64,000 bases of DNA. Source: Albibacterium bauzanense. GTDB lineage: Bacteria; Bacteroidota; Bacteroidia; Sphingobacteriales; Sphingobacteriaceae. The notes under the pieces are model-generated. The model had not been told where the DNA came from. It saw nothing but the letters and a program-made list of their open reading frames with translations, and made no database searches. Below, piece by piece: positions 35,494 through 41,833 of this stretch (the first letter of the stretch is position 1; every line of letters starts with the position of its first letter). The position numbers and the translations under genes are program-made. Where the stretch lies: the NCBI RefSeq assembly GCF_004339765.1, contig NZ_SMGO01000003.1, forward strand, positions 62,001-126,000. Reading direction: 5' to 3'.

Positions 35494-35985
35494 TTTTTCT
35501 ATTTTTTAAGGTTAATCATTAATATATTTCATACTATTTCTTAGTAATGATGTAAAATTATTAAAAAATATCCTTAAAAAACAAATTATTTATATAATAT
35601 TTCTATTTATACATAACAAATATTTAAATAAGCCACTATTTACACAATAAAATATCATATATACGTTAATATTATAAACTATTTATACATTTAAACGAAC
35701 ATATAATTACAATACTCAATTATAAGTAGAAATTTATAGTTATATAATAAGAAATTACTAGACAATATCTTAATATTTGGATAAAATACAACCAAATTAG
35801 GCTACAAAACACCAAAACACTTAAAAGAAACCAACCAAAAGGATTGTATTTCAGAAATAATGAAGATTAAAACATAAAAACAGAACAAACAAAATCATTC
35901 CAGCATATTAAACAGAACATTCTATTGATATTCTGATTCGTAAAAAGGTATCTGCATTCATGTATGTGAAATTATTTTACATTTT
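35494..35985. other. Very AT-rich intergenic region
   Basis: About 490 bases without a gene, dominated by A and T with long runs of TATA-like sequence. It separates the porin gene from the attenuator of the chorismate operon. It may hold promoters for both, but no single element is clear on the porin side. Confidence 0.5.
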
Positions 35986-35988
35986 TTG

Positions 35989-36018
35989 TTGATAAAATGA
36001 ATTTCTTTTGTACTTTTG
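35989..36018 (+). promoter_or_regulatory. Canonical promoter of the aromatic attenuator and operon
   Basis: TTG at 35989-35991 and TACTTTTG at 36011-36018 are exactly 19 bases apart. Transcription should start near 36023, only a few bases before the leader peptide ATG. Confidence 0.75.
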
Positions 36019-36026
36019 GCAATACA

Positions 36027-36092
36027 ATGAAGCAAACAACAGCATATTGGTATTTTGGTTTCTTTTACTTTAGCAGTAACAGCCGGGATTGA
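36027..36092 (+). CDS. Aromatic leader peptide of a translation-coupled attenuator
   Basis: A 21-codon frame contains the run YWYFGFFYF at residues 7-15, so eight of nine consecutive residues are aromatic (four Phe, three Tyr, one Trp). It starts 9 bases after the -7 element and ends at TGA, overlapping the antiterminator arm. It is followed at 36125 by a terminator and then by pheA. The leader senses charged tRNA for aromatic amino acids by ribosome stalling. Regulation by this means is inferred from the arrangement, which follows the classical trp/phe design. Confidence 0.88.
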   Translation: MKQTTAYWYFGFFYFSSNSRD

Positions 36093-36132
36093 TATGCATA
36101 TATAAAAGATAAAATGTATAAAAAGTCTCGGT
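36082..36132 (+). promoter_or_regulatory. Antiterminator pairing of the attenuator
   Basis: GCCGGGAT at 36082-36089, inside the last leader codons, can pair with GTCTCGGT at 36125-36132, which is the 5' arm of the terminator. Three of the eight pairs are G-U wobbles. The two structures exclude each other. Confidence 0.75.
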
Positions 36133-36153
36133 AAACCCCGGGGCTTTTTTTTT
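36125..36153 (+). terminator. Attenuator terminator before pheA
   Basis: GTCTCGG (36125-36131) pairs with CCGGGGC (36138-36144) including two G-U pairs, with loop TAAACC and nine T residues after. It lies 12 bases before the pheA start codon. Confidence 0.85.
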
Positions 36154-36165
36154 GACAAAAAAACA

Positions 36166-36993
36166 ATGGATAAAATACGCGTAGCCATACAAGGAACGAA
36201 GGCCTCCTTTCATGAAGAAGCCGCTTTTAAATATTTCGGAGAGGATATCGAAACAATTGAATGCGATTCTTTTAAAGCAACCTGCGATGCGTTAAAGCAA
36301 AAAAAAGCAGATTATGTTGTAATGGCTATCGAAAATTCAATAGCCGGAAGTTTGCTGCCGAACTATAATTTGCTTCAAGAATACCGCTTTCCTATTATAG
36401 GCGAAGTTTACTTAGGTATCCAGCTGCATTTAATGGCTTTACCGGGGATTACATTAGAACAAATAAAGTTTGTAGAATCACACCCCATTGCTCTGCGTCA
36501 ATGTGCTGATTTTTTTGAAGAACATCCGGATATTAAGGTAAGCGAAGGAATGGATACGGCAGCCTGCGCAAAAAAAATTAGTGAAAATAAATTAACTGAT
36601 ACGGCAGCTGTAGCCAATGCATTGGCAGCTAAGATATATGGATTAGAAATCCTTGACCGTAGAATCGAAACGAATAAAAAGAACTATACTCGTTTTTTGA
36701 TTCTTGCAGCTAAGCCTGGAGAAAATCCCAATGCCAATAAAGCATCCATATCTTTCCAGACTGACAACTCTATTGGATCTTTAGCAAAAGTATTGAACTA
36801 TTTCGCTGAACATCAAATCAATATGAGCAAAATTCAATCAATGCCAGTACTAGGAAAAAGAAATGAATACATCTTCCATGTTGATTTTGAATGGAAGAAG
36901 CTTTCAGACTATGAAGCAGCCATCCGAAAAACATTGAAACACACGGTGAACTTCAATATTTTAGGAGAGTATCAGAAAAACGAAAAAGTATAA
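36166..36993 (+). CDS. pheA: Prephenate dehydratase
   Basis: This is a 275-residue protein: a prephenate dehydratase domain (residues about 4-180, including ENSIAGSLLPNYNLL and the conserved ESHPIALRQC) and an ACT regulatory domain (about 193-270, NSIGSLAKVLNYFAEHQINMSKIQS) that binds phenylalanine. It makes phenylpyruvate from prephenate. There is no fused chorismate mutase domain; that activity is on the next gene. It is the first structural gene after the attenuator. Confidence 0.95.
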   Translation: MDKIRVAIQGTKASFHEEAAFKYFGEDIETIECDSFKATCDALKQKKADYVVMAIENSIAGSLLPNYNLLQEYRFPIIGEVYLGIQLHLMALPGITLEQIKFVESHPIALRQCADFFEEHPDIKVSEGMDTAACAKKISENKLTDTAAVANALAAKIYGLEILDRRIETNKKNYTRFLILAAKPGENPNANKASISFQTDNSIGSLAKVLNYFAEHQINMSKIQSMPVLGKRNEYIFHVDFEWKKLSDYEAAIRKTLKHTVNFNILGEYQKNEKV

Positions 36994-37039: not shown

Positions 37040-38146
37040 ATGAAACTTAATTTAAACATCGTACCTCTAAGCTCTTGGTTAAATACAGGTAAAGAACCTT
37101 TAATTATATCAGGACCTTGCAGTGCTGAAACAGAAGAACAACTGTTAGCTACTGCACATTTATTGGCAGCAACAGGTAAAGTATCTGTTTTGCGTGCCGG
37201 GATCTGGAAACCACGTACTCGTCCGGGTGAGTTTGAAGGAATCGGGAGCATTGGTTTAGAATGGTTAAAGCGTGCAAAAGAAGAAACAGGATTGCCTACA
37301 GCTGTTGAGGTTGCTACTGCAAAACATGTTGAAGAAGCTTTGGCAGCCGGTGTTGATATTTTATGGGTAGGTGCTAGAAGTACAGCTAATCCTTTCACTG
37401 TTCAGGAAATAGCAGATGCTTTAAAAGGTGTAGATATTCCTGTTTTAGTTAAAAACCCAATCAATCCTGATCTTGCATTATGGATTGGAGCTCTTGAGCG
37501 TATTAATAATGCTGGAATCACTAAAATAGGCGCTATTCACCGTGGTTTCTCTTCTTACGAAAAAACTTCTTTCCGTAATGAACCAATGTGGGATCTTGCT
37601 ATCCAATTAAAAGCAATTGCACCAGAATTGCCAATGATCAATGACCCAAGCCATATTTGTGGTAACCGTGAGTTGATTCCTTACATCGCACAAAAAGCAT
37701 TGGATTTAGATATGCAAGGTTTAATGATTGAATCTCATATCGATCCTTCGGTTGCATGGACAGATGCTAAACAACAATTAACTCCTGCTGCTCTTGCTGA
37801 ATTGGCTGATAAATTAACACTTCGTAAAGCAGATTCTGACAACCCGGTTTTTGATGATCAACTAGCAACACTTCGTACAGAAATAGATAAGCTAGATACC
37901 TTGATTATCCAAAAAATTGGAGAACGCATGAAGATTGTTGAGAAAATCGGTACTTTCAAACGTGATAATAATGTAACTATTTTACAAATCACTCGTTGGG
38001 ATGAAATCGTTGAAAAAAGAACTGCAATGGCAAGTGCTTTAAAGTTAGATAAAGACTTTACTGTTAAATTCTTAGAATTAGTTCATAATGAATCAATTCG
38101 CAAACAAAACGAAATCATGAACACAAAACCATCGGTAGAAGTTTAA
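37040..38146 (+). CDS. DAHP synthase fused to chorismate mutase
   Basis: This is a 368-residue protein. The N-terminal KDO-8-P-synthase-like DAHP synthase (1-260) carries ISGPCSAETEEQL, RAGIWKPRTRPGEFEG, KNPINPDLALW, and NDPSHICGNREL. The C-terminal AroQ-type chorismate mutase domain (about 275-360, RTEIDKLDTLIIQKIGERMKIVEKIG) feeds the pheA product line. Both first and branch steps lie on one chain, typical of Bacteroidota. The operon order is pheA, this gene, aroA, aroC. Confidence 0.95.
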   Translation: MKLNLNIVPLSSWLNTGKEPLIISGPCSAETEEQLLATAHLLAATGKVSVLRAGIWKPRTRPGEFEGIGSIGLEWLKRAKEETGLPTAVEVATAKHVEEALAAGVDILWVGARSTANPFTVQEIADALKGVDIPVLVKNPINPDLALWIGALERINNAGITKIGAIHRGFSSYEKTSFRNEPMWDLAIQLKAIAPELPMINDPSHICGNRELIPYIAQKALDLDMQGLMIESHIDPSVAWTDAKQQLTPAALAELADKLTLRKADSDNPVFDDQLATLRTEIDKLDTLIIQKIGERMKIVEKIGTFKRDNNVTILQITRWDEIVEKRTAMASALKLDKDFTVKFLELVHNESIRKQNEIMNTKPSVEV

Positions 38147-39397
38147 ATGGAAGCAAAAGATATCCGTTTAACAGCTTCTTCAAAAACGATTAAGGATACC
38201 ATTCAGCTTACCGGATCTAAGAGCGAGAGCAATCGGGCTTTGATTATTCAGGCTTTAAGCAAAGGAAAGGTTGAAATTAAGAACTTATCAGAAGCTGCCG
38301 ATACAGTTGCCTTAGAAGGCGCATTGCAACAAGCAAAAAATGCCGGAGATGCTGAGATCACAGTTGATATCGGCCCGGCAGGTACCGCCATGCGTTTTCT
38401 AAGTGCTTTTCTTCCATTAAATACAGGAAAATTTGTACTTACCGGAAGTGAACGAATGAAACAAAGACCTATTGGTATTCTATCAAATGCGATGAAGTCT
38501 TTGGGTGCACATATTGAATTTGTGGATAATGAGGGTTTCCCTCCTTTAAAAATAACAGGGCCTTTTGAGCAAAAATCGGCCGAAGTTACTGTAAAAGGAA
38601 ACATCAGCAGTCAGTATTTATCGGCTTTGCTGTTAATATCCAACTCTCTTCCACAAGGGTTAAAGCTTAATATTGAAGGAGAATTAACCTCTCGTCCTTA
38701 TGTCGAAATGACTTTGGACATGTTAAAGGAAACAGGGATCCAACACAGTTGGCAAGGAAATCAAATTCATATTGCTCCACAAACTCCGAAAGCGTCTACC
38801 CTATTTATAGAACCAGACTGGAGTGCTGCTTCCTATTGGTATTCTATAGTTGCTTTGGCTGAGGAAGCAGATATTTTACTGCCTGGATTAAAACCTTCAA
38901 GCCTACAGGGCGATCAGGAAATTAAAGATATTATGTTGGACTTTGGAGTTCTTTCGGTCTTTACCGCTGAAGGATTAAAACTTACCAAAGTAAAGGGAAG
39001 AAAATTAAAAGAAAGCTATAATCTTATCTCTTGTCCGGATCTTGCTCAAACTGTCATCGTTTGTTGCGCTGCATTAGGTTATGAAACATCATTTACCGGA
39101 TTAGAAACGCTGAAGATAAAAGAGACAGATCGCATACTGGCTTTACAGAATGAATTGGCTAAATTTGGCGTAAGGCTTTATGAGGCAGAAAAAGAAACGT
39201 ATCGAATAGATTGCAGTAAAAGATTTAATCCGGATACAATAACTATAAAAACTTACGAAGACCATCGCATGGCCATGGCTTTTGCCCCTCTTGCTTTGAT
39301 CTTCAAGGAATTAATCATTGAAGAGCCGGAAGTAGTAGAAAAATCGTACCCATTATTCTGGAAGCATTTGGAACAAGTGGGTTTTAAAATCAATTAA
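38147..39397 (+). CDS. aroA: 3-phosphoshikimate 1-carboxyvinyltransferase (EPSP synthase)
   Basis: This is a 416-residue protein starting directly after the preceding stop. It shows the EPSP synthase elements GSKSESNRALIIQAL, GPAGTAMRFLSAFL, SSQYLSALLLIS and the C-terminal KETDRI and DHRMAMAFAP. It adds the enolpyruvyl group to shikimate-3-phosphate, the sixth step of the shikimate pathway. The zero-base spacing suggests translational coupling. Confidence 0.95.
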   Translation: MEAKDIRLTASSKTIKDTIQLTGSKSESNRALIIQALSKGKVEIKNLSEAADTVALEGALQQAKNAGDAEITVDIGPAGTAMRFLSAFLPLNTGKFVLTGSERMKQRPIGILSNAMKSLGAHIEFVDNEGFPPLKITGPFEQKSAEVTVKGNISSQYLSALLLISNSLPQGLKLNIEGELTSRPYVEMTLDMLKETGIQHSWQGNQIHIAPQTPKASTLFIEPDWSAASYWYSIVALAEEADILLPGLKPSSLQGDQEIKDIMLDFGVLSVFTAEGLKLTKVKGRKLKESYNLISCPDLAQTVIVCCAALGYETSFTGLETLKIKETDRILALQNELAKFGVRLYEAEKETYRIDCSKRFNPDTITIKTYEDHRMAMAFAPLALIFKELIIEEPEVVEKSYPLFWKHLEQVGFKIN

Positions 39398-39419: not shown

Positions 39420-40514
39420 ATGGCAGGAAATTCTTTTGGTAAAGCTTTTAAGATTACCACCTTTGGTGAGTCGCACGGTAAAGCTATTGGTGTAATTATA
39501 GATGGTTGTCCTCCAAATGTTGAGGTTGATTTAGAGTTTATTCAGCAGGAGCTTGATAAACGCAAACCTGGCCAATCTAAAATTACTACTCAAAGAAAAG
39601 AGAGCGATACCTGCTCGATCCTATCGGGTATTTTTGAAGGTAAAACTACCGGAACGCCTATCATGCTTTTGATTCCAAATGAGGATCAACGTTCAAAAGA
39701 TTATTCACATATTCAGGATAAATACAGACCCTCACACGCCGATTATACCTACCAGGTTAAATACGGAATTCGTGACTATCGGGGTGGCGGACGCTCTTCT
39801 GCAAGAGAAACAGCTGCAAGAGTTGCAGCCGGAGCTCTGGCTAAGCTATTCTTAAAGCAATATAATATTGAAATTTTCTCGCATGTTTCTGCTGTAGGAA
39901 AAATTCAAGCACCTAATCTAAGTAGCAACAATATCAAAGAATTACTGGCGATACGTGAAGAGAATATTGTGCGTTGTGCTGACCCTGCAACTGCTAAGGA
40001 AATGGAAAACTTTATTGGGGTGATCAAAAAAGAAGGCGATACAGTTGGTGGAAAGATAGCTACCGTTATTCAAAACGTTCCAGTAGGTTTAGGTGAGCCG
40101 GTTTTTGATAAACTACATGCCGATCTGGGAAAAGCGATGTTAAGCATTAATGCTGTTCACGGCTTTGAATACGGATCAGGTTTTGAAGGTTCAAGCATGC
40201 GCGGATCAGAGCATAATGATATATTTATCAATCCTGAACATTCAAATAAGGCTTTAAAAACCTTAACAAATTTTTCAGGCGGTATTCAAGGTGGTATTTC
40301 AAACGGAATGGATATCAACTTTAACGTAGCTTTTAAGCCGGTAGCAACCATTATGCGTGCTCAGAACACCATTGATCAGGAAGGAAACGATGTGGAAATT
40401 ACAGGAAAAGGAAGACATGACCCTTGTGTGGTGCCTCGTGCAGTAATTATTGTAGAAGCTATGGCCGCATTGGTAATAGCCGATCATCTACTACGAAACA
40501 AAGCCTATCAATAA
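39420..40514 (+). CDS. aroC: Chorismate synthase
   Basis: This is a 364-residue protein with the three family signatures: [34 protein letters not shown] and [16 protein letters not shown], plus [11 protein letters not shown] near the C-terminus. It uses reduced FMN to convert EPSP to chorismate. It ends the operon before an MFS gene that has its own promoter. Confidence 0.97.
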
Positions 40515-40603: not shown

Positions 40604-41833
40604 ATGAAAAAAGGATTATATGCATTATTACTCGGTGGTTTAGGAATAGGAATTACCGAATTTGTGATGATGGGTTTGTTACCCGACATTGCAAAAGATT
40701 TAGCTATTAGCATTCCTCAGGCAGGGCATTTAATTTCTGCTTATGCATTAGGTGTTGTAATTGGCGCTCCCCTATTAGTATTGATCGCAGGAAAGTACCC
40801 ACCAAGAAATATATTGATTTTCTTGATGATCATGTTTACAGTTTTCAACGGACTATCTGCATTTGCTCCTGGCTATACAAGCTTGTTTATAAGTCGTTTA
40901 TTGGCTGGATTACCACATGGAGCCTTCTTTGGTGTCGGTTCTGTAGTAGCAAGCCGAATAGCTCCTAAAGGTAAGGAAGCACAATCTATCGCCATCATGT
41001 TTGCCGGTTTAACCATAGCAAACATTGCCGGCGTACCGCTTGGCACTTATATTGGTCACCATTATTCATGGCGACTTTCGTTCGCTGTTATTGTTTTAGT
41101 GGGTCTTATTACTATAATAAGCTTAAAATACTGGATGCCAAATCTTCCTGCAAACAAAGAAAGCAGTCTTAAAACTCAATTAAACTTCTTTAAGAGTTCG
41201 AAATCATGGTTAATGATCCTTATGATTTCTATTGGTACAGGAGGTTTATTTGCATGGTATAGTTATATCGCTCCATTAATGACTGAAGTATCTGGCTTTT
41301 CAGCAAACTCAATTACTTATATATTAATGGTAGCTGGTTTTGGAATGTTACTTGGTAACTTCATAGGTGGTAGATTAGCTGACATCGTTTCGCCTGCTAA
41401 AGCATCTTTAATATTGCTTTCTACCATGGCTGTTACCTTGGTAATTGTATATTTCGTTTCTTTTAATCCTATTCTTTCTCTTGTTATGACTTTTGTAACC
41501 GGTGCAGTAGCATTTGCTTTAGCACCCTCTGTACAAATGTTAATGATTAATACAGCTAAAGGATCTGAAATGCTTGCAGCATCAACCAGTCAAGCAAGTT
41601 TTAACATCGGAAATGCATTAGGTGCTTTCTTAGGTGGTTTGCCATTAGCAGCAGGTTATGATTATACTTCTCCATCATTAGTGGGTGCATTAATGGCCTT
41701 AACGGGAGGTGTAGTAGCCTGGGTTATTGTAGTACAAAGCAGAACAGCTAAAGTAAAAGTAAGCCCTGTTAAAAAGGAAAAGAAAATACCTAGCATTGAT
41801 TTCTTCAAAAAAAGTATAGCTCTTCAAAAGTAA
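40604..41833 (+). CDS. MFS transporter (AraJ-like DHA1 efflux family)
   Basis: This is a 409-residue protein with twelve predicted membrane helices. The N-terminal motif GITEFVMMGLLPDIAKDL and LISAYALGVVIGAPLL, as well as SRLLAGLPHGAFFGVGS, fit the AraJ/YdhP-type DHA1 family of sugar or drug efflux proteins. It sits directly after the shikimate operon but has its own promoter with an operator-like palindrome, so it is probably controlled by a ligand-sensing repressor. Substrate unknown. Confidence 0.88.
   Translation: MKKGLYALLLGGLGIGITEFVMMGLLPDIAKDLAISIPQAGHLISAYALGVVIGAPLLVLIAGKYPPRNILIFLMIMFTVFNGLSAFAPGYTSLFISRLLAGLPHGAFFGVGSVVASRIAPKGKEAQSIAIMFAGLTIANIAGVPLGTYIGHHYSWRLSFAVIVLVGLITIISLKYWMPNLPANKESSLKTQLNFFKSSKSWLMILMISIGTGGLFAWYSYIAPLMTEVSGFSANSITYILMVAGFGMLLGNFIGGRLADIVSPAKASLILLSTMAVTLVIVYFVSFNPILSLVMTFVTGAVAFALAPSVQMLMINTAKGSEMLAASTSQASFNIGNALGAFLGGLPLAAGYDYTSPSLVGALMALTGGVVAWVIVVQSRTAKVKVSPVKKEKKIPSIDFFKKSIALQK

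Follow-up and report, generated by a model that had tools for sequence, protein, structure and literature searches.

A probable trp-type attenuator with a phenylalanine- and tyrosine-rich leader upstream of pheA in Sphingobacteriaceae

Introduction

What decides whether RNA polymerase enters the aromatic amino acid operon of Albibacterium bauzanense? In the window analysed here, a 64,000-nt stretch of that 3.08 Mb genome (whose closest pheA outside its own genus is found in Olivibacter, at 80% identity, and in other Sphingobacteriaceae), a short reading frame dense with aromatic codons stands just upstream of pheA, and a sequence-only reading of the locus had proposed attenuation following the logic of the trp and phe operons. 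We are highly confident that the element is a trp-type ribosome-mediated transcription attenuator of pheA, DAHP synthase/chorismate mutase, aroA and aroC, responding to the charging of tRNA-Phe and tRNA-Tyr and, in this species, perhaps to that of tRNA-Trp. The leader, promoter box, antiterminator, terminator and 1:2 hairpin, all of which recur across the family, support the logic first proposed.

The classical precedent is E. coli pheL, a Phe-rich leader ORF before pheA whose transcript forms 1:2, 2:3 and 3:4 hairpins and a U-tract terminator, with the position of the ribosome selecting the fold. Multi-amino-acid attenuators are also known, as in ilvGMEDA (Ile, Val, Leu) and thr (Thr, Ile). 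Bacteroidetes are reportedly among the predicted attenuators of Vitreschak et al. in 2004. In this phylum, where Shine-Dalgarno sequences are for the most part not used to start translation and the promoters are of an unusual type, such switches have mostly only been hinted at, and mapping a complete trp-type attenuator by comparison has value there. A structured 5' element of pheA, conserved among further genera of the family and lacking an Rfam match, was described for Flavobacterium psychrophilum in 2021, and leader peptide attenuation was inferred for amino acid operons in the same paper (PMC9723704). Beyond that paper, we found little literature on Bacteroidota amino acid attenuators; leader-peptide-like sORFs in B. 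thetaiotaomicron are the subject of a general remark (PMC7366714).

The operon and its promoter

Features of the locus are collected in the table. The operon had been described as pheA-aroA-aroC; all three genes are indeed present, and the description omitted the DAHP synthase-chorismate mutase fusion that lies between pheA and aroA. For the same reason the proposal that the leader governs the "whole late shikimate pathway" agrees with the gene content for the late steps and is too narrow for the rest, since with this fusion the operon includes the first shikimate enzyme. Control of the trunk shikimate pathway would then be coupled to Phe and Tyr supply via a single switch. Each of the 33 family contigs that were tested shows this four-gene order behind the leader; in one of them the examined stretch ends short of aroC. 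In the window, 89 bp 3' of aroC, lies a gene for an efflux transporter (MFS, AraJ/Cmx-like group; 40604-41833) that may or may not belong to the operon; none of the relatives tested for operon order had it at that place.

Table. Features of the pheA leader and operon (window coordinates).
Feature	Position	Strand	Evidence
-33 element TTTG/TTG	~35985..35991	+	sequence; 19-22 nt from -7 box
-7 box TACTTTTG (TAnnTTTG)	36011..36018	+	TAnnTTT in 56/56 distinct family sequences
Leader peptide ORF MKQTTAYWYFGFFYFSSNSRD, then stop	36027..36092	+	21 codons; same-kind ORF at all family loci
Regulatory codons TAT TGG TAT TTT GGT TTC TTT TAC TTT (YWYFGFFYF)	36045..36071	+	sequence; at least 6/9 aromatic in 56/56 family
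Segment 1, 1:2 hairpin 5' arm (GCATATT, ATTTTGGTT, TTACT)	36042..36069	+	MFE fold, covariation, synonymous-codon control
Segment 2, 1:2 hairpin 3' arm, includes antiterminator arm GCCGGGATT	36075..36097	+	MFE fold, synonymous-codon control
Antiterminator 5' arm (GCCGGGATT + ATGCATA region)	36082..36099	+	alignment pairing, folding
Antiterminator 3' arm, also terminator 5' arm	36114..36132	+	alignment pairing, folding
Intrinsic terminator, stem 36120-36131/36138-36149 (12 pairs), T-run 36145-36153	36120..36153	+	-14.2 kcal/mol
pheA, prephenate dehydratase (ACT-like region at the C terminus)	36166..36993	+	PF00800 1e-55
DAHP synthase-chorismate mutase fusion	37040..38146	+	PF00793 + PF01817
aroA, EPSP synthase	38147..39397	+	PF00275, TIGR01356
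aroC, chorismate synthase	39420..40514	+	PF01264, TIGR00033

Upstream of the leader one finds the promoter that had been anticipated, though of the Bacteroidota type, with TTTG as its -33 element, rather than the canonical E. coli -35/-10 type; a scan for E. coli-type promoters returned 25 matches vs 28.7 in shuffles, and thus no excess. TAnnTTTG is the Bacteroidota -7 box, placed at -12 to -5 (PMC9723704), and on that placement transcription would start near 36023, 4 nt 5' of the leader ATG. The distance from box to ATG is 8 nt here and 8-27 nt, with a median of 17, in the 56 distinct family sequences; the 5' UTR predicted from the same placement (PMC9723704) is ~4 nt here and ~13 nt typically in the family. 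This predicted near-leaderless start thus characterises the genus rather than the family, and the earlier remark that the leader begins only a few bases from the transcript start would apply to this species and its genus.

The leader peptide

The leader runs from an ATG at 36027 to a TGA at 36090-36092, and the 21 codons with eight aromatics among the nine of YWYFGFFYF lie where they had been placed. An alternative in-frame start at 35997, which gives a 31-codon ORF, was rejected; it lies 5' of the conserved -7 box and is found only within the genus.

The region upstream of pheA is AT-rich, and TTT, TTC, TAT and TAC arise easily in such sequence, which might suggest that the aromatic ORF is a by-product of composition and that the locus holds nothing beyond a 5' UTR and a plain intrinsic terminator, constitutive or factor-dependent, with no sensing. 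Composition alone, however, is unlikely to yield such a frame: when the 300 bp upstream was dinucleotide-shuffled 5000 times, no shuffle reached eight aromatics per nine codons and two reached seven, and random tiles from the same family loci never attained six (0/845 at at least six). Scanning the whole window on both strands gave five overlapping tiles at eight aromatics per nine codons, which is the expected count because a 50-base tiling step covers one leader repeatedly. Against a by-product, too, each of the 56 distinct Sphingobacteriaceae regions upstream of pheA has an aromatic leader scoring 6-8 per nine codons; among these leaders Phe and Tyr codons replace one another, and insertions preserve the frame. 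We consider the by-product explanation very improbable.

Across the family, the leaders follow roughly the pattern M-x(3-5)-[AT]-Y-[WFY]-F-G-[YF]-F-Y-[FY]-...-S-K-S-R-D-stop. In Desertivirga, Pararcticibacter and their kin the ORF ends after 16 codons and the RNA GAGCCGGGAC persists just past the stop, so here it is the RNA arm that is retained, and not the peptide. In all 54 aligned sequences (of the 56) the leader stop codon falls between -6 and +17 nt from the start of the antiterminator arm.

Alternative folds of the leader RNA

The predicted leader RNA (36023-36153) has a minimum free energy (MFE) fold of -29.8 kcal/mol, made up of a long 1:2 hairpin, a small AU hairpin and the terminator. 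The 1:2 hairpin, absent from the sequence-only reading and found here to be conserved and covarying, comprises an outer helix of GCATATT (36042-36048) with GATATGC (36091-36097), a middle helix of ATTTTGGTT (36052-36060) with AGCCGGGAT (36081-36089) and an apical helix of TTACT (36065-36069) with AGTAA (36075-36079); in the window species its apical part contains a mismatch and the middle helix is largely G-U. On the strength of these MFE and partial folds, the aromatic codons and the single Gly codon are placed in the 5' arm of 1:2, and the SRD codons coincide with the antiterminator arm. The codons of the sensor peptide are in this way constrained by RNA pairing, the Gly codon retained inside the aromatic run being an example.

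With the 5' arm of the 1:2 hairpin removed, which mimics a ribosome stalled on the aromatic codons, and the second arm of the terminator left out as well, the RNA adopts the antiterminator, a nine-pair helix (36082-36090/36124-36132) with a second, seven-pair helix (36093-36099/36114-36120), at -16.5 kcal/mol vs -14.2 kcal/mol for the terminator. The shorter pairing proposed beforehand (36082-36089 with 36125-36132) is exact if G-U is allowed and is extended by these two helices. The competing terminator was likewise located correctly, with nine T in its run and 12 bases between the end of that run and the pheA ATG (36166). The 3' arm of the antiterminator overlaps the 5' arm of the terminator, and the two folds are mutually exclusive. 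Removal of 36023-36102, which mimics a ribosome at the stop codon, leaves the terminator to form on folding. If folding is instead begun at 36061 and the terminator included, the terminated form prevails at equilibrium, and the switch must therefore be kinetic, as in trp. The 1:2, 2:3 and 3:4 architecture of a trp-type attenuator is complete.

Conservation and covariation

The comparison with relatives that the sequence-only reading had called for is borne out twice over, by the aromatic leader at every family locus and by covarying arms in the 54-sequence alignment, in which terminator, antiterminator and 1:2 hairpin are all conserved. For the 1:2 outer and apical helices together with the terminator, 93.9% of cells are paired, as against 34-48% when the arms are slid by 1-3 columns. 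Changes on both sides of a pair occur in 11 of 27 pairs vs 5.4 (sd 1.1) in shuffles of the 54 sequences, a comparison in which the shuffles ignore kinship; related sequences are not independent, and tree-based counts of changes account for relatedness in part. Six of the 12 terminator pairs have changed on both sides within the family.

The apical helix, predicted independently by RNAalifold, has 98.4% of its cells paired, and its pair 54:65 is C-G in 46 sequences and U-A in 7, with joint changes of both sides some 5-6 times along the pheA tree. At the outer pair 19:90, 28 sequences have G-C, 13 have A-U and 6 have G-U. One relative (L031) has wholly different arms, ACTGGTTTTAC with GTAAAACTAGT, and maintains the pairing. 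Two others (L037 and L038) have replaced the conserved GGT (Gly) by GCT (Ala) and carry AGCGGGG, not AGCCGGG, in the antiterminator arm; by our reading the middle helix is preserved there in a shifted register. The 1:2 hairpin is predicted in the MFE fold of the window's leader RNA and in nearly all relatives, and with the peptide held constant the 1:2 region is more stable than synonymous-codon redraws in 53 of 54 sequences (mean z -1.74).

The antiterminator has 94.8% of its cells paired and at least five contiguous pairs in all 54 sequences, with double changes at two pairs, a modest covariation attributable to the fact that its arm must match two partners. The weak antiterminators are those of L051 (-8.1) and L016 (-13.0).

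Proposed mechanism

From the arrangement of these parts we infer a translating ribosome whose stalling sets the outcome. With aromatic amino acids plentiful, the ribosome would reach the stop codon at 36090 and cover the antiterminator arm (36082-36090); the terminator (36120-36149) would then form, and transcription would end before pheA. When Phe or Tyr runs short, the ribosome would stall within 36045-36071 and open the 1:2 hairpin, which would allow 36082-36099 to pair with 36114-36132 before the second arm of the terminator exists, and the polymerase would read on. Were the leader left untranslated, the 1:2 hairpin (36042-36069/36075-36097) would sequester the antiterminator arm, and termination would be the default. 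A ribosome usually shields ~12 nt ahead of its A site; one halted at the final aromatic codon (36069-36071) would already encroach on the antiterminator arm, and hence the earlier codons should matter most.

Relation to known regulators

Could a structured RNA of this kind sense its ligand with no ribosome at all, as a T-box-like tRNA sensor, a riboswitch or the target of an RNA-binding protein, the ORF being incidental? The RNA is structured, and so is the Flavobacterium pheA 5' element that lacks an Rfam match (PMC9723704). Searches speak against it: no T-box, riboswitch or protein-binding leader reaches the Rfam threshold, the T-box covariance model matches neither the window nor any of 20 relatives, and none of those 20 relatives attains the gathering cut-off of any Rfam family. 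The conserved primary sequence, moreover, is that of the ORF, with aromatic codons and a stop beside the antiterminator arm even where the frame has shrunk to 16 codons. We give a sensor of that sort scarcely any credence and retain the ribosome-mediated attenuator.

Of the Rfam attenuator families, Phe_leader (RF01859) gives a full-model match of 30.1 bits (E 0.0023), below its gathering cut-off of 55, and Trp_leader (RF00513) has no match to the pheA leader element. The element would act like pheL and trpL and lies outside both Rfam families by their own test. With the E. coli pheA leader (pheL, RF01859) it shares the leader ORF, the three hairpins and the U-tract terminator, and it differs in having Tyr as frequent as Phe (216 vs 227), trunk shikimate genes in the operon and a Bacteroidota promoter. 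Like E. coli trpL (RF00513) it has three mutually exclusive hairpins and an antiterminator arm that forms part of the 3' arm of 1:2; unlike trpL it has Phe and Tyr codons, a predicted 5' UTR of 4 nt and a separate trp leader in the genome. The likeness to Phe_leader may reflect common descent or convergence. With ilvGMEDA and thr, the element would have in common that one leader reads several end products of a branched pathway, here another pathway and other amino acids. The F. psychrophilum element belongs to the same phylum and gene and is likened to ours by description, the main text of that paper containing neither the pheA sequence nor a mechanism (PMC9723704). Given the proposed pheL- and trpL-like action and that prior report, this would be a known kind of switch that has been little described in the phylum. 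Our 54-sequence alignment could seed an Rfam family.

Whether the genome holds the element twice was also asked, and a further copy was rejected: all other matches were weak, the best scoring 37 bits vs 109.7 for the pheA element. At G000:C1:583288-583466, two weak leader-model matches lie on opposite strands, perhaps a bidirectional terminator.

Amino acids probably sensed

It had been suggested that one leader senses all three aromatic amino acids. For Phe and Tyr the suggestion agrees with the codons, which dominate the 56 leaders (227 Phe and 216 Tyr residues); for Trp it fares less well, Trp codons being present in 23 of the 56 distinct leaders and absent from 33. The same genome, furthermore, has its own WWWY leader, MTNINYINNWWWYGKNRAGKLI, followed by a terminator, before trpE (L032:1310-1440, G000:C2). 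Phe and Tyr would thus be the conserved signals, since fewer than half of the leaders contain Trp and the trp operon has a leader to itself; Trp would be optional at best, and doubtful. An attenuator of the same design responding equally to all three might be favoured by the early TGG in the window leader and in the leaders of several genera, and by the fact that the operon provides chorismate for Trp too. Set against the missing Trp codons and the separate trp leader, an equal response seems unlikely to us, and we keep to an attenuator responding chiefly to Phe and Tyr.

The -7 box of the trp leader, TAATTTTG, stands only 5 nt before its ATG, so the trp leader may be practically leaderless too. 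In this genome hisG is preceded by a leader peptide with five His, MNYTFTHHLHFHRHCGDIK (L115 reversed, ~1235-1294, G000:C1). No obvious intrinsic terminator is seen before hisG, which apparently starts at TTG, and hisG may be regulated at translation or in some other way. With trp and his leader peptides seemingly present in the genome, the pheA leader is not the sole candidate Trp sensor. Upstream of two ilvD-type genes we saw no convincing leader. The aminotransferase-tyrA pair is located apart from the pheA operon (L113:288-2301, G000:C2), and no aromatic-rich leader was seen in the 287 bp upstream of it. In a Cyclobacteriaceae relative (L108), by contrast, a single aromatic leader precedes pheA, and the aminotransferase and tyrA genes come next, ahead of DAHP synthase.

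Occurrence outside the Sphingobacteriaceae

Elsewhere in the class, beyond this family, 44 pheA upstream regions were compared, and 25 of them contain a leader of six or more aromatics per nine codons. A strict terminator separates leader and pheA in 18 of those 25, vs 2 of the 19 regions that have no such leader. Both operon and leader are missing from most Prolixibacteraceae loci. We regard as evenly balanced the broader proposition that attenuators of this kind form one family across the Bacteroidota, in which a single leader would respond to Phe and Tyr together (in some lineages to Trp as well) and so adjust flux through all of aromatic biosynthesis, DAHP synthase to chorismate and prephenate; in the present genus its translation would begin almost at the first nucleotide of the transcript.

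At four Bacteroidales MAG loci (L105-L107 and L110), a second terminator-like hairpin with a T-run (e.g. GTCCCGCTTTCACGGGACTTTTTTT) abuts the ATG of the aromatic leader; this upstream hairpin may be the terminator of the preceding gene or a second attenuation step.
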